Source of the DNA: a virus
Strand: one strand, 5' to 3'
IMG/VR virus record: IMGVR_UViG_3300033148_003376
Span: 1-64,000 of that record
Length of the DNA stretch: 64,000 bases
Shown: positions 2,431 to 35,087 of the stretch, piece after piece
Layout of the letters: each line of letters starts with the position of its first letter
How positions within the stretch are numbered: position 1 is the first letter of the stretch
Position numbers and translations under genes: made by a program
Notes under the pieces: generated by a model
Database searches by the model: none
What the model was told of the DNA's origin: nothing
Seen by the model: the letters and a program-made list of their open reading frames with translations, nothing else

Positions 2431-3650
2431 CATACTCCCATGACTAAAGTCATGAGATTCCGGGTTCAAACAAGAGTTGCCAACAAAGTTGGTCTTATAC
2501 TCTCTAGTCCGAGAGAAGATGCCCCTTCTCTTTTCAAATTCATTCCAGCGTTCTGATCCCGGTCGTGCTTTGTTTGGCACCCCTGACATGTCCAAATACA
2601 GTCTCTCAATGAAAGATTCTCGTTTATCCATCCACAGTAAGAACACGTCTTCGAAGATGGATAAAATTGATCTGCTTGCCAAAGTGTAGAACCGAGTTTG
2701 TTGCACATGTGTTGTAGAATCAAAACAAAGTCCGAGAAGCCAAGATCTGATATTTTTCTTCCCCACAGCTTTTTCATAGCACCGATATTCAAAGTTTCGA
2801 TGCAGATCACGTCGAAATCAAGCGCAAGTCGTCGAGTCAATTTGAAATGAAAATCTCGTCTTTGATTGACGATCTTTCGGTGAACTCTTGCAAAACTCAA
2901 GACAGCCTTTCGTCTGTTGTTCGATCCTTTCTTTTTGGATGATACTATTTTACTGGCTACTTTTACCCTATTTGACCCGATTTTGAAAAACTGTGGAGAT
3001 CGTATTTTTTCCCCTGTGCTAGACGTGAGAAATGTCTTGAGACCAAAATCAAACCCCTCAATTTTACCTGTAGAAGTTCGTTCAATCTTTGGTTTCTCTA
3101 CCCTGTCACAAGAGAAAAACAGATAAACATCTCCTAAAGTATCTCGTTTGATAGTCACCGTCTTAATTTTACCCTCTATTTCACGAGACTTCGAATATTT
3201 ATAAACCCTATTTCCAATGCGGATCTTATTATCATCTAGTAACTTGTATCCGCACTGTTTCAGAGTAAAGGATTTGTATTTGGACTTTTTCTTGAAAGAT
3301 GGTGGACGGTACCGTTTTTCACATCTTTTTAAACTTTTGAAAAATAAACGATAAGCACGGTCAACTCGTTCCACAATGTCTTGAATTGTTTGAGATCCTA
3401 AATCGTTCCAATACCGAAATCGCTTTATCTTTTTGTAACGGGTAAAATGTTTTTGAATTTCATACTTAGACGGGTACTTTCCAAACAATCTGTAATATGT
3501 TTTATGTAGGGCAATGAGATGGTTATAAATAGAAGATGCAAGGTTTATCTGTCGATGTAAACCTTTTATACTTTTTGACTTATAAAGTTTAAATTTAAAA
3601 GACTTTCTCATCTACTCTTTTGACCATTTATGTATTTTTCAACGATCTTT
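2428..3650 (-). mobile_element. IS605/IS1341-type solo-TnpB element
   Basis: One full-length tnpB lies on the minus strand. Its right end holds a perfect hairpin, CATGACT-AA-AGTCATG at about 2439-2454, just beyond the tnpB stop and next to the stop codon of the preceding gene. This hairpin is typical of IS200/IS605 right ends and of the RNA made from that end. No tnpA is present. The left end was not resolved; 3650 is a guess between the tnpB start and the promoter at 3704. Confidence 0.7.
2466..3611 (-). CDS. tnpB: TnpB, RNA-guided nuclease of IS605/IS1341 type
   Basis: The 381-residue protein has the full TnpB layout: N-terminal WED/REC-like helical region, then RuvC-like motifs with Asp188 (GFDFG), Glu272 (CIETLNI) and the DRDQNA motif at 350-355. 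A zinc ribbon lies between the last two (CSYC at 323-326, CQGC at 342-345). All three acidic residues are present, so nuclease activity is expected. Known TnpB proteins cut DNA guided by RNA from the element's right end and help keep the element in place. Its A/T-rich, Lys-rich codon style differs from the neighbours and points to transfer. Confidence 0.9.
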   Translation of the reverse strand: MRKSFKFKLYKSKSIKGLHRQINLASSIYNHLIALHKTYYRLFGKYPSKYEIQKHFTRYKKIKRFRYWNDLGSQTIQDIVERVDRAYRLFFKSLKRCEKRYRPPSFKKKSKYKSFTLKQCGYKLLDDNKIRIGNRVYKYSKSREIEGKIKTVTIKRDTLGDVYLFFSCDRVEKPKIERTSTGKIEGFDFGLKTFLTSSTGEKIRSPQFFKIGSNRVKVASKIVSSKKKGSNNRRKAVLSFARVHRKIVNQRRDFHFKLTRRLALDFDVICIETLNIGAMKKLWGRKISDLGFSDFVLILQHMCNKLGSTLWQADQFYPSSKTCSYCGWINENLSLRDCIWTCQGCQTKHDRDQNAGMNLKREGASSLGLESIRPTLLATLV

Positions 3651-22837: not shown

Positions 22838-24072
22838 AACAATACGCATACGATTTAAAAAATCTCGAAGACGAGTTGTCGAAGAGCTACGCTGGATTTG
22901 TCGAATCAAATGACGACGGGACCAGGACCAGTCTGTTCGATAGTATTCAAGATCTCGCGATAGCGATCCTAAAAGTCGGAAAATATCGCAACACAGATCT
23001 TGATAAAGATCAGATGTCGTATGACTACGCGTGTTCTTTATTCGAACGCATCGTTAGTGGAGACTGGATTCCCGAAATCCGAAGTGATAGATTCCCATGG
23101 CAAAAATACGTATCGAAAAACATCTTGGATACCATACATCCAAAAAAATCAAAAACCGACTCGGTCAATGAGCTTGTAAGTGATCTCGAATACATTCTCA
23201 ACACAACAAGTGCATCGATCTTCGATTCCATACCAGAAACACCGGATCAAAACCTCAAACGACAAGACCTTGCATATGCTCTGTATGATGCGATCAAGAT
23301 ACACTATTCAGACAAAGAAATACGAAGACTCTTTGGCATCAGTATCGATCTTGTGTTAGACAAAAACAAATGGACTATGCTCAAGAATTATCCACAAGAC
23401 ATTAAAGATTTCGTCATCGTACTCGTGTGCATGGCCAAGCGATTAATATTAGATAACAACATCAATCGAGGTAGAGATATCCACCGTGGAGATCTTTCAA
23501 AGATCATGTCGAGTGTGACTCGTTCGTCTATTTTCCTATCAGCGATCGTAAATCCGAACCGACGTAAATTCGTACAGAAAGAATTATTACTCGCACTCGA
23601 TCTCGCATCGATCTACAGATTGGCTTACGCTTTAGGTGGAAAACTCATACGCATTCCGTCTATAGACATGCTCGACACGCTTGTGGGTACGTCTGTTATT
23701 CTCGCCAAGCGTATTCTTGAAGGCAAGAAATTAGACCGGAATACACGTCAGAAGGTAAGCAGAGACTACGGTATCATTTTCAGACAAGAGCCAAACCTGA
23801 CTATCCAGGAATTTTGCTCAAAAGCGATCGAAGTCTATGAGACGTTCCAAACCGCTGAAGATATCAAGCCTATCATGGATTCGATTCTGAAATCTGCTAA
23901 ATCCCTTGAGATAGCAGCGTCAAAAATCTGTGAAAATCCAGAAATGGAAGGCTACAGAGAAATACTATCAGACTATTCTACGGTGATTGAGTCACTCCTT
24001 AGAGTGGGAGCGTCGATCGAAATAATCCATCAAAAGATCCAGAAAAAGGCTTTCAATGAACAGCAAGATTAA
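22834..24072 (+). CDS. Putative phage sigma-like transcription factor
   Basis: The 412-residue protein is largely helical. Residues 55-104 resemble sigma70 region 2: DYACSLFERIVSGDWIP, then RFPWQKYVSKNILDTIHPK, where sigma factors have AxxLFxKI...F..W...I..N...D..R. Around 260-315, LGGKLIRIPSIDML followed by a helix and AKRILEGKKL resembles the GGxxIyIP block of Mor-type activators. Together these suggest a DNA-binding transcription factor for middle or late genes. The match is by eye and some conserved residues are missing. It is coupled to both neighbours. Confidence 0.4.
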   Translation: MKQYAYDLKNLEDELSKSYAGFVESNDDGTRTSLFDSIQDLAIAILKVGKYRNTDLDKDQMSYDYACSLFERIVSGDWIPEIRSDRFPWQKYVSKNILDTIHPKKSKTDSVNELVSDLEYILNTTSASIFDSIPETPDQNLKRQDLAYALYDAIKIHYSDKEIRRLFGISIDLVLDKNKWTMLKNYPQDIKDFVIVLVCMAKRLILDNNINRGRDIHRGDLSKIMSSVTRSSIFLSAIVNPNRRKFVQKELLLALDLASIYRLAYALGGKLIRIPSIDMLDTLVGTSVILAKRILEGKKLDRNTRQKVSRDYGIIFRQEPNLTIQEFCSKAIEVYETFQTAEDIKPIMDSILKSAKSLEIAASKICENPEMEGYREILSDYSTVIESLLRVGASIEIIHQKIQKKAFNEQQD

Positions 24073-24937
24073 CGACAAGATTTTTGATTTTTACAGGTTC
24101 GCCTTTGAACGACAATCAATATGGCACAGACGAAATGTGGAAAAAATGACATATCCCTGGACAAACGATGAGATCCTACAGCGATATCAAATATGCAATG
24201 TCTTCAGACAGCTAGATAAAGGCACTCAGTATATTATCAATAAGGTCTTGAAACAGAACATCGACAATGAATCGAAGATCTTCAATGCGATCATTTATAG
24301 ACTGTTCAACCTACATGGACTATTCGAGCACATCTTTTACGGTCTCGTCAATCCAAAGACATACACGTTTATACATTACGAGAAAGAACTAGAAGAGAAA
24401 AAGAAAAAAGGACAACAGCTATTTCACTGTGCTTACCTCGTGAATCAACACCCATACAATCGTTTCTATAGACCTCGTGAGAAGCACATTCAGATCCTAC
24501 TCATACTCGAATATGTTACACGAGGTCTCAAAGGACTTGCAGAGTACATATCCAAGTCAAATCCCACCGACTGTATCAAAGGATTGACGTCTGTTCCAAA
24601 GATCGGCGACTTCCTCGGTGGTCAAATTCTTCTCGACCTATCATATGCCGGAATTCCACCGTTCAACGACGATTTTTGTATCGTCGGTCCAGGTGCAACA
24701 TATTCATTACAATTCATGTTCGATACGACTACTATAGTTCAGGGGAAATTACAGGAATTATGTAAACGTGTATGTGAAGAACAAACATGTCTCGCTGACA
24801 TTGGAAACTGGAATGAGATCGTACCAGGCGAGTTCGATCAATTGAGTCTTGGAAATATCGAACATTCTCTTGGAGCGTACAGTAGATATCTCAAACTCAA
24901 GACGGGTACAGGGAAAGGACGACGTTACAAAAGATGA
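24056..24937 (+). CDS. HMUDK/TPPase helical-domain protein (thymine hypermodification)
   Basis: The 293-residue protein starts inside the end of the sigma-like gene. Residues 13-60 carry FAFERQSIWHRR, YPWTNDEILQRY and CNVFRQLDKGTQYI. This is the pattern of the helical domain (related to DNA glycosylases) found in 5-hydroxymethyl-dUMP DNA kinases and alpha-glutamyl/putrescinyl thymine pyrophosphorylases of phages with hypermodified thymine. A helix-hairpin-helix-like stretch (LTSVPKIGDFLGGQILLDL, near 177) and a glycine-rich loop IVGPGA follow. No P-loop kinase domain is fused. Expected role: acting on modified thymine in phage DNA. The family assignment rests on several remembered motifs in the right order; substrate is unknown. 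Confidence 0.65.
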   Translation: MNSKINDKIFDFYRFAFERQSIWHRRNVEKMTYPWTNDEILQRYQICNVFRQLDKGTQYIINKVLKQNIDNESKIFNAIIYRLFNLHGLFEHIFYGLVNPKTYTFIHYEKELEEKKKKGQQLFHCAYLVNQHPYNRFYRPREKHIQILLILEYVTRGLKGLAEYISKSNPTDCIKGLTSVPKIGDFLGGQILLDLSYAGIPPFNDDFCIVGPGATYSLQFMFDTTTIVQGKLQELCKRVCEEQTCLADIGNWNEIVPGEFDQLSLGNIEHSLGAYSRYLKLKTGTGKGRRYKR

Positions 24938-25600: not shown

Positions 25601-26191
25601 ATGGCATTCGTCACCACGAAAGTCGCATCAGAGAAACTCGGTGTACATTCCAATACCCTTAGACTATGGGATAAACTCGGGAAGATCAAAACGATCCGGA
25701 CACCGGGTAATAACAGATTGTACGATCTGAGTTCTTTGGAATCCACCCAGAAGAAAAAGATCATCTATATCCGTGTCAGTTCAAGGAACCAAAAAGATGA
25801 CCTGCGAAATCAGATTGAATACGTTAGAAAACGATATCCAAATCACGAGTATATCGAAGACATTGGCTCCGGTCTCAACTTCAAACGTAAAGGACTTAAA
25901 GTCCTATTGGAATCAATCATGTCTGGAGATGTCGAAGAAGTGGTCGTCGCTCACAAAGACAGATTGTGTCGATTTGGATTTGAACTCATTGAACAGATTG
26001 CAAGTCAATACAATACAAGAATCGTGGTACTCAGCGAGAGTAAACTCTCTCCTCAAGAAGAAATCGTTCAAGACCTTCTTTCCATCATCCATGTTTTCTC
26101 CTGTAGGCTTTATGGTCTCAGAAGATACAGTCGTGAGATCAAAGAAGATAAAAATTTATCCAAAAAAGGAAAATCAAAGTCTTCTAAATAG
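25601..26191 (+). CDS. tnpA: IS607-family serine recombinase TnpA
   Basis: The 196-residue protein has an N-terminal MerR-like HTH (residues 5-45: VASEKLGVHSNTLRLWDKLG) and then a serine recombinase domain starting IIYIRVSSRNQ with catalytic Ser60. Later come EDIGSGLNFKRKGLK and VVVAHKDRLCRFGFEL, characteristic of IS607 TnpA. The length is typical. The SD is AGAGGTAG. All key parts are present, so the element may still be mobile. Confidence 0.9.
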   Translation: MAFVTTKVASEKLGVHSNTLRLWDKLGKIKTIRTPGNNRLYDLSSLESTQKKKIIYIRVSSRNQKDDLRNQIEYVRKRYPNHEYIEDIGSGLNFKRKGLKVLLESIMSGDVEEVVVAHKDRLCRFGFELIEQIASQYNTRIVVLSESKLSPQEEIVQDLLSIIHVFSCRLYGLRRYSREIKEDKNLSKKGKSKSSK

Positions 26192-27212
26192 GTATCTGGG
26201 ACTATCCCGCTATTGGTTCAATCAAGCGATTGAATATCTGAGACAACCAGACACAAAGGCGTATCTTCCAGAGGTGAGAAAGATTCAAAAGAACGAACAT
26301 CCTATTTGGGCACTTGACTGTCCACAACGCGTCCGTGAACACGCAATAAGCGATGCATGTAAAGCTGTGAAGAATGCAAAATCAAAATATCATTCTGGAA
26401 ACGGGTTTCAAAGAGTATCATTTCGTTCAAAAAAGAATCCAAGTCAGTATTTTGGTTTTGATCTCGTAAGTCTTAATGATAGTTTCATTTTCAAACAAAA
26501 GAAATACAAAGGAGAATTCTATGCATCAGAATCATTCAGACATGAGTTAGAGGGAATAAGAATCAAAAGAGAAAACGGAAGATGGTTTCTTATCATTCCA
26601 CAAAGACGACATATCAAAGTACCTGAGAACCAAAGACTGAAGTATGTCGCACTCGATCCAGGGATAAGAACTTTCACGTCATTTTTCTCTCCAGAAGTCT
26701 TTGGTAAAATAGGCGAAAGCGACTTCAGACAAATCTTCAGACTCTGTCTTTCGATGGATCGCTTGATTTCGAAGACGAGTAAGGTGCGGTGTAAGACTAG
26801 ACGCAGAATGAAAAAGGCGTTGCAACGAATCCGATGGAGAATCAGAAATCTAATAGACGAACTTCACCGAAAGACAGCGCATTTCCTTGTTACTCGCTTC
26901 GATGTCGTTTTCATACCGACATTTGAGACGTCTGAAATGGTCACAACACTGAGGTCCAAGACAGCAAGGAGCATGCTCAATTTTGCTCATTACAGATTCA
27001 AACAGTTCCTGAAGACAAAGGGCGAAGAATACTCGTGTGAAGTCGTTGAAGTCAGTGAAGCCTATACATCAAGGACGTGTTCGTTTTGTGGAAAGGTACA
27101 CAATATTGGTAGCAAGAAAACTCTTCGCTGTCGATGTGGTGTATCGGTGGATCGAGATCTCAACGGCGCACGTGGTATTTTACTACGTGCTTTGATGGTT
27201 ACATCCCATTAG
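26091..27212 (+). CDS. tnpB: TnpB, RNA-guided nuclease of IS607 type
   Basis: The 373-residue protein starts inside tnpA; ATG 26091 or 26112 is most likely, since the open frame further upstream lies wholly within tnpA and is not TnpB-like. RuvC motifs are intact: Asp in VALDPGIRTF, Glu in FIPTFETSEM, and VDRDLNGARG at the end. A zinc ribbon (CSFCG...CRCG) lies in between. It is only distantly similar to the TnpB at 2466, so the phage carries two independently acquired TnpB systems. Confidence 0.9.
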   Translation: MFSPVGFMVSEDTVVRSKKIKIYPKKENQSLLNRYLGLSRYWFNQAIEYLRQPDTKAYLPEVRKIQKNEHPIWALDCPQRVREHAISDACKAVKNAKSKYHSGNGFQRVSFRSKKNPSQYFGFDLVSLNDSFIFKQKKYKGEFYASESFRHELEGIRIKRENGRWFLIIPQRRHIKVPENQRLKYVALDPGIRTFTSFFSPEVFGKIGESDFRQIFRLCLSMDRLISKTSKVRCKTRRRMKKALQRIRWRIRNLIDELHRKTAHFLVTRFDVVFIPTFETSEMVTTLRSKTARSMLNFAHYRFKQFLKTKGEEYSCEVVEVSEAYTSRTCSFCGKVHNIGSKKTLRCRCGVSVDRDLNGARGILLRALMVTSH

Positions 27213-30873: not shown

Positions 30874-31308
30874 ATGAAGACTATCGAACAATTCAAAGAC
30901 GAATATTTCTTCTTGAGTAATTTCTATCCGTTTCCCGTCGTTTATAACGGTGTAGAATACCCTACATCCGAACATGCGTTTCAAACCGCGAAGGTACACG
31001 ATCCGTCTGAGAAGATATGGATCAAAGGTGCTCCAACACCAGGAAAAGCAAAATATCGTGGTAGAGGAGTGACTCTAAGAGAAGACTGGGAAGATGTCAA
31101 AGTCGAGATCATGAAAAACGTCATCCTCGCCAAGTTCTCTAATGAGGATCTCAAGAAGGCTCTCCTCGATACAGGAGATACCGTTCTCGTTGAAGGGAAT
31201 ACCTGGAAGGATACGTATTGGGGTGTGAGTCTGAAGACTGGACGGGGAAAGAACGTGCTCGGGATAATCCTCATGGCTGTAAGAGAGTATTACAAGGAAA
31301 ATGGATGA
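30874..31308 (+). CDS. NADAR-domain protein (YbiA-like, ADP-ribose removal)
   Basis: The 144-residue protein is a complete NADAR domain: FFLSNFYPFPVVYNGVEYPT and SEHAFQTAK at 12-40, then NVILAKFS, a conserved Trp motif (EGNTWKDTYWG) and GKNVLGIILMAVRE at the end. The family cleaves N-glycosidic bonds. YbiA/RibX members act on riboflavin intermediates, while several phage and DarTG-linked members remove ADP-ribose from nucleic acid. In a phage, removing a host defence mark from DNA is an attractive role, but this is inference. It is cotranscribed with the ThyX-like gene. Confidence 0.9.
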   Translation: MKTIEQFKDEYFFLSNFYPFPVVYNGVEYPTSEHAFQTAKVHDPSEKIWIKGAPTPGKAKYRGRGVTLREDWEDVKVEIMKNVILAKFSNEDLKKALLDTGDTVLVEGNTWKDTYWGVSLKTGRGKNVLGIILMAVREYYKENG

Positions 31309-34018: not shown

Positions 34019-34199
34019 TCGTAACCTGATTATCTGGTTATATCGCTCCGCTGTATAGCTTGATATTGCGCTTTGGTCAAATTCGAATGGTTTTTAGCAG
34101 CACTATAACTTGTTGTTTTGTTTCGTAATGCAGAAAACCTTTAAGTTTTTCTTGTTATTTGTCGAGTAGTATTATATGAGACAAACAACGGAGGGGAAA

Positions 34200-35087
34200 A
34201 TGGATCGAAAAGAACTGATAAAGCTACAAGCCATGCCTCTCGAAGACAAAATAGCACTGGCACAGGATCGCATAATGCAATGGCACAACCACTACAACGG
34301 TCAGGTGTACATTGCATTTTCGGGTGGTAAAGATTCAACGGTACTCCTACATCTGGTAAGACAAATATACCCGGAAATACCTGCTGTTTTTTATGATACT
34401 GGTTTGGAATTTCCAGAGATCCGCGCCTTCGTTAAAACAATTAGTAATGTAGTTTGGTTAAAGCCTACCATGACATTCAAGCAAGTGATCGAGAGTAAGG
34501 GTTGGCCAATAATATCGAAAAATGTAGCAATGGCCATTTCTAGATATCGCAATACTAAAGACCCAATCCAAAGACAGCTTAGACTACACGGCGGAATTAA
34601 CCCTACTAGTGGCAAGGTGCAAACGACTGGAGTGATCCCTAAGAAATATCACTACTTAATACACGCACCATTTAAAATAGGCGAAGGCTGTTGTGATGTT
34701 ATGAAAAAAGCATTGCGGAAAAGATACGAGAAAAGCACTAATAGAAAATCACTAGTCGGAACAATGGCGGCTGATAGTTCTGGCAGGAGAACGAGATATC
34801 TATCACTTGGGTGCAATGCCTTCGATGCTAAACAACCACGATCTGCTCCGCTATCTGTTTTCTTAAACCAGGATATATGGCAATATATTACAAAATTTGG
34901 CGTTCAATTCTGTGACATCTATACCAAGGGATACGATAATACAGGCTGTGTCTTCTGCTTATTCGGAATCGTGCAAGACCCTGATAGGGCCGACAGGCTG
35001 AAAAAAACGCACCCAAAACTACATAGCTATTGTATGGAAAAGTTGGGCATGGCCGAAGTAATCGAATGGATCAAGAGAGGTATGTAA
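34200..35087 (+). CDS. PAPS-reductase-like PP-loop protein with Fe-S cysteines
   Basis: The 295-residue protein starts at ATG 34200 after GAGGGG. Residues 36-50 are the PP-loop (YIAFSGGKDSTVLL), followed by FYDTGLEFPE, as in PAPS/APS reductases and DndC. A Cys-Cys pair (GEGCCDVMKK) is followed 84 residues later by a CxxC (TGCVFC); this CC-X80-CxxC spacing is the [4Fe-4S] motif of APS reductases. The role could be sulfur transfer to DNA, RNA or sulfate assimilation. It is coupled to a recombinase, and its codon use differs from the flanking phage genes, suggesting recent acquisition. Confidence 0.75.
   Translation: MDRKELIKLQAMPLEDKIALAQDRIMQWHNHYNGQVYIAFSGGKDSTVLLHLVRQIYPEIPAVFYDTGLEFPEIRAFVKTISNVVWLKPTMTFKQVIESKGWPIISKNVAMAISRYRNTKDPIQRQLRLHGGINPTSGKVQTTGVIPKKYHYLIHAPFKIGEGCCDVMKKALRKRYEKSTNRKSLVGTMAADSSGRRTRYLSLGCNAFDAKQPRSAPLSVFLNQDIWQYITKFGVQFCDIYTKGYDNTGCVFCLFGIVQDPDRADRLKKTHPKLHSYCMEKLGMAEVIEWIKRGM

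Follow-up and report, generated by a model that had tools for sequence, protein, structure and literature searches.

A divergent stand-alone HMUDK_hel-family protein with a degenerate C-terminal motif on a contig of an uncultivated tailed phage

The stretch of viral DNA analyzed here (the window; 64,000 nucleotides) comprises positions 1 to 64,000 of the IMG/VR record IMGVR_UViG_3300033148_003376. It contains an uninterrupted open reading frame, from an ATG to a stop codon (both included in the coordinates of Table 1), for a protein that we call the hel protein. Using hmmscan, we found a single Pfam family for this protein, the helical domain of 5-hydroxymethyl-dU (5-hmdU) DNA kinases (PF18723, HMUDK_hel; E=4.7e-47); the score is 161 bits compared to a cut-off of 25, and residues 11-284 correspond to positions 6-277 of the 281 in the profile. 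PHROG 2396 (phrog_2396), for which PHROG gives no function, matched as well (E=1.8e-38), whereas searches of NCBIfam and PADLOC yielded no match; membership of a known anti-phage defence family was rejected for P0001, which has no PADLOC match. A preliminary description of this DNA had recognized the helical domain of 5-hmdU DNA kinases at this locus and had proposed a search with the HMUDK_hel profile. Given the Pfam match, that observation is correct, far beyond chance; the predicted fold agrees, and membership of the family is secure. The same description had extended the likeness to thymine pyrophosphorylases (ADDT / aGPT-Pplase2), and this extension was not borne out, as the protein has no sequence match to PF18724. 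The coding score of the hel gene is typical of its neighbours, and its codon-position composition resembles that of the neighbouring gene.

Table 1. Features of the hel locus and other elements of the contig (window positions unless stated otherwise)
Feature	Position	Strand	Evidence or remark
HMUDK_hel-family protein, 293 aa, stand-alone helical domain	24056..24937	+	PF18723, phrog_2396, AF2, Foldseek
Block 1, R19..I22...PWT36	24110..24163	+	(near-)invariant in A4 alignment; DNA pattern unique in window
Block 2, N48-x-x-R51-x-x-D54	24197..24217	+	invariant in A4 alignment
Hairpin and next helix, L177..F186..D194	24584..24637	+	helix-hairpin-helix glycosylase-like by fold; F186, D194 invariant
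G211-P212-G213 loop (VGPGA of the preliminary description)	24686..24694	+	G213 invariant; G211, P212 >=90%
Degenerate C-terminal motif GAYSRY, compared to CE-x-x-K-Y of relatives	24872..24889	+	alignment, 113 relatives
Upstream gene, 412 aa	22834..24072	+	overlaps hel start by 17 bases; no relative found
ThyX-like (PF02511 Thy1) protein, 412 aa	31526..32764	+	Pfam E=9.3e-14
Zeta_toxin/AAA_33 P-loop kinase P0002	61587..62315	-	only small one found on contig; in virion-gene cluster
IS607-type element (serine transposase and TnpB)	25601-27212	+	between hel and ThyX-like genes
Second, separate TnpB	2466-3611	-	OrfB_IS605 / Cas12f1-like TNB
NADAR domain protein	30874-31308	+	PF08719 2.5e-30; TIGR02464 above cut-off
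PAPS-reductase-like protein	34176-35087	+	also matches parts of PADLOC BrxP and SspD
Intein splicing domain in a 667-aa structural-region protein	L002:11032-13035 (contig 74531-76534, beyond the window)

The conservation values of the blocks were obtained from an alignment of 98 sequences (A4). All core blocks of PF18723 that were looked for (R..I, PWT, N..R..D, R, F..D and GPG) are present in the hel protein, and the conserved blocks and VGPGA loop described earlier were thus recovered along with the hairpin. At the DNA level, a degenerate pattern of blocks 1 and 2 matched once in the window, compared to zero matches expected from shuffled sequences. When 113 relatives were aligned, conservation of at least 80% was seen in 32 columns, of which the hel protein keeps 25; the retained residues include R19, P34-W35-T36, N48, R51, D54, R82 (also a core residue), A126, F186, D194 and G211-P212-G213.

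The C-terminal motif CE-x-x-K-Y is lost, which the preliminary description had overlooked. Among the 113 relatives, every sequence that covers the motif has its C, E and K (100% conservation), whereas the hel protein has G273, A274 and R277 instead and retains the Tyr alone (G-A-x-x-R-Y). The relatives were gathered by the pattern of blocks 1 and 2 and therefore were not chosen for CE..K, although the sample is not exhaustive. It should be noted that this motif criterion was derived in the present analysis rather than taken from a published definition of the family. A frameshift was rejected as the cause of the loss because the residues past the motif still align in frame with the relatives. 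Further departures are the replacements of F46 by I and of G217 by S; a pattern search detected no relatives with I46. The best identity to the relatives compared is 28%, searches of viral and genome contigs by peptide pattern found no near relatives, and in the tree the hel protein is a long-branch singleton, with a branch of 2.0 that is among the longest. The window protein is a new, divergent member of the known HMUDK_hel family, and because CE..K is universal elsewhere, its loss here provides a natural test of CE..K function.

The AlphaFold2 (AF2) model of the hel protein, built with 97 relatives in the alignment, is confident (pLDDT 87.5, pTM 0.85). Its best viral match by Foldseek among the predicted models of BFVD is the 5-hmdU DNA kinase of SP10 (E 6.8e-10, TMq 0.80), followed by HMUDK_hel proteins of phiRSL1, phiW-14 and a Nodularia phage, with an amino acid:DNA transferase further down. 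In the kinases of SP10 and Goe26, PF18748 is fused to PF18723; the helical half aligns by fold with the hel protein, whereas the latter lacks the kinase half and the P-loop. Only weak matches were obtained in the PDB. They are led by helix-hairpin-helix 8-oxoguanine DNA glycosylases (not significant, E >=0.1 and TMq ~0.4, with no sequence homology detected) and include the 5-PmdU glycinyltransferase PUGT of PaMx11 (gp46, 8z2n), a transferase of the ADDT / aGPT-Pplase2 type (TMq 0.40-0.44); a family profile search found no solved structures by sequence. The glycosylase-like fold of the model would support a base-binding or base-flipping role.

Searching GenBank phages with the hel protein (tblastn), we found 263 records, all at low identity, e.g., Bacillus SBSphiC, Goe26, PaMx11, Lysinibacillus LysYB1 and ackermannviruses; the relatives in PaMx11, LysYB1, Goe26, TSW001 and Se_EM4 fall into PF18723 according to Pfam. 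With the PF18723 (aGPT-Pplase1) proteins of PaMx11 (gp50), M6, ViI-like phages and phiW-14, the hel protein shares the full-length match, the fold, PWT, N..R..D, the hairpin with its D, and GPG, and, like its counterparts in PaMx11, LysYB1 and ackermannviruses, it stands alone; it differs from these relatives in the lost CE..K, the low identity and the absence of a visible family kinase gene on its contig. Kinase and ThyA-family genes lie alongside hel in PaMx11, LysYB1 and Goe26. The LysYB1 kinase is a separate gene directly upstream of hel, and in PaMx11 the hel gene adjoins genes for a thymidylate synthase homologue and a small P-loop protein with a match to AAA_33 and a weak one to PF18748. 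Published cassettes of the M6 type combine hel (aGPT-Pplase1) with aGPT-Pplase2, a nucleotide kinase and a pyrimidine hydroxymethylase, and hypermodified thymines have been measured in the DNA of M6 (PMC9476957, PMC6449724).

The same association was observed in uncultivated viruses. A tighter degenerate pattern recovered PaMx11 alone, and a looser PWT..N..R..D pattern recovered at least 120 IMG/VR contigs, nearly all of which encode a hel relative according to a profile search. In a survey of the flanks of 128 hel loci, GenBank phages included, a ThyA-family gene was found in 78 and a recognisable kinase in 46; a P-loop protein of 110-420 aa lies within 3 kb of hel in 57 loci, and most of these are directly adjoining kinases of ~200 aa. 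Whole-record searches of 50 hel-carrying IMG/VR records detected PF00303 (ThyA family), which does not tell hydroxymethylases apart from ordinary thymidylate synthases, in 38 and PF18748 in 14. Where the distance between hel and a ThyA-family gene was measured, it was at most 6 kb for 31 of 37 pairs, compared to ~8.5 expected under random placement. Among the matches listed, the relatives from 119 IMG/VR contigs usually have a thymidylate-synthase-family gene next to them, and often a P-loop kinase. The hel domain is thus widespread in uncultivated viruses and closely tracks thymidylate-synthase-family genes. A clade of viral hel proteins (L030, L115, L118, L110, L108 and relatives) mostly has a ThyA-family neighbour but lacks a P-loop kinase within 3 kb; this suggests that the hel domain often works without an adjoining kinase gene. 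Taken together, the profile match, the resemblance of the model and the ThyA-family and kinase neighbours of the relatives indicate that the tie of the hel family to thymine hypermodification is real. The family is not restricted to self-protection of phages: a recent survey of defence systems reports that the domains validated in anti-phage systems of bacteria include a 5-hydroxymethyluracil kinase and a thymidylate synthase, and it predicts aGPT-Pplase as a defence domain (PMC13092281).

The record is a viral contig of 103,593 bp from an uncultivated tailed phage, with terminase, T4-type portal, gp23-like capsid and sheath proteins; the capsid protein is closest (39%) to those of Rhizobium phages of 154-207 kb. 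Since no DNA polymerase, helicase, primase or other replication gene was found among the called genes, the contig is probably an incomplete fragment. Over the whole of this probable fragment, there was no match to the 5-hmdU kinase PF18748 (either fused to hel or next to it), to the amino acid:DNA transferase PF18724, or to a ThyA-type hydroxymethylase (PF00303), in place of which the contig carries the ThyX-like gene; no radical-SAM or PLP enzyme appeared among the Pfam matches of the called genes. The protein encoded upstream of hel has no Pfam match above the cut-off and no PHROG; tblastn against phages gave nothing at E<=0.1, and a peptide-pattern search of IMG/VR found no relative; with neither a P-loop nor a homologue, it was rejected as a hidden kinase. 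A weak candidate for a kinase partner is P0002, which shares 47% identity with proteins from Pelagibacter phage HTVC008M and Methylophilales phage Melnitz and also has relatives in Agrobacterium phages. As a dedicated 5-hmdU kinase, however, it falls short of PF18748 and sits among virion genes.

The most likely reading, which we hold with modest confidence, is that the hel protein is a DNA-binding, base-presenting accessory in hypermodification derived from 5-hmdU, with the kinase encoded off the contig. Under this model, the hel protein is a helical module of the 5-hmdU DNA kinase family that stands alone and is putatively akin by fold to helix-hairpin-helix DNA glycosylases. It would grip DNA and offer 5-hydroxymethyluracil bases to a P-loop kinase encoded separately; phosphorylation of the 5-hydroxymethyl group would then initiate the hypermodification of thymidine by which the phage DNA is protected. 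Genes for the kinase and the later enzymes would lie in the unsequenced rest of the genome, and the 5-hmdU precursor would be supplied by a hydroxymethylase not seen here or, with less certainty, by the ThyX-like enzyme. This role is favored by the genetic linkage between the family and the pathway and by a core that has been kept on a long branch. The PF18723 match, the confident model, the kinase and ThyA neighbours of the relatives, the M6 cassettes and the intact reading frame were counted in its favor, whereas the loss of CE..K, the absence of pathway genes on 103.6 kb, the long branch and the upstream gene without a known family were counted against it; our confidence is lowered by the lack of partners and by the loss of the motif. 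The biochemical role of this copy is predicted from its family, and modified thymine in the DNA of this phage, which the preliminary description had considered probable, may likewise be present: the proposal is plausible through the family and is weakened by the lack of a kinase, transferase and ThyA-type enzyme on the probable fragment and by the lost motif. If true, thymine hypermodification would extend to a phage lineage with a T4-like capsid, beyond Ackermannviridae and the SP10-like and M6-like phages, which would affect how the phage DNA is restricted and sequenced.

The main rival, a serious one that we regard as less likely, is that the hel protein is a diverged, catalytically altered paralogue, repurposed or inactive, that has kept the DNA-binding and base-flipping core and not the original reaction; such a protein could recognize or bind bases that are modified or damaged, or have a regulatory function, in a phage without hypermodified thymine. 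The loss of CE..K, the changes at F46 and G217, the long branch, the contig devoid of pathway enzymes and the weak fold likeness to base-flipping glycosylases are all consistent with this explanation. Conversely, 14 (near-)invariant core residues have been retained despite the great length of the branch, which favors the ancestral binding role, and the loss of CE..K need not abolish activity.

Another alternative concerns the source of the precursor. The preliminary description had stated that no other feature of the window accounts for the domain, which is wrong in part given the ThyX-family gene, located 6.6 kb downstream of hel on the same strand. The encoded protein scores below the TIGR02170 cut-off. 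When its N-terminal half was aligned to ThyX of T. maritima, EHE was found in place of the canonical RHR of the RHR-x7-S motif; the C-terminal half (180 aa) has no detectable homology. A second ThyX domain in this half, considered because of an RHR there, was rejected, with no Pfam match and a profile score inside the range of shuffled sequences. AF2 without an alignment was uninformative (pLDDT 35), and distant relatives occur in Vibrio mediterranei jumbo phages. In a full pathway of this kind, the ThyX-like protein, rather than a ThyA-type enzyme, would make 5-hydroxymethyl-dUMP, and the kinase would be P0002 or an unseen gene. We consider this improbable. The shared strand and the distance, the change of the flavin/dUMP motif RHR to EHE, which may reflect changed chemistry, and the presence of a Thy1-family gene in two of the 50 hel-carrying viral records, neither of which has a ThyA-family gene, are compatible with it. 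However, 6.6 kb is unremarkable on a contig of 103.6 kb (~1 in 7 by chance, by our own estimate), the ThyX-like protein may just produce dTMP or have no activity, and the virion-gene cluster that contains P0002, a protein short of PF18748, is conserved across unrelated phages. A system of altered layout, in which hel without CE..K would act with the upstream 412-aa protein, and 5-hydroxymethyl-dUMP would be supplied by the motif-changed ThyX-family enzyme, not by a ThyA-type enzyme as in most relatives, appears about as improbable. Least probable of all is a decaying remnant from a hypermodifying ancestor, the function being gone, for which the lost universal residues and partners and the mobile DNA insertions in the contig (the IS607-type element and the second TnpB) would speak, and against which stand the intact reading frame, the neighbour-like coding score and codon-position composition, and the preserved core motifs.

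Several other elements were noted on the contig (Table 1). The TnpB of the IS607-type element has relatives in Moorena, Prochloron, SAR202 and Allochromatium; a host assignment from this element was rejected, as the relatives, from cyanobacteria, SAR202, other MAGs and Allochromatium, are mostly at 30-45% identity (up to 56% in short segments). The NADAR protein is possibly a counter-defence gene, acting as an ADP-ribosyl-guanine or nucleotide N-glycosidase. A PAPS-reductase-like protein is encoded further downstream, and an intein splicing domain is found beyond the window, in a protein of the structural region.
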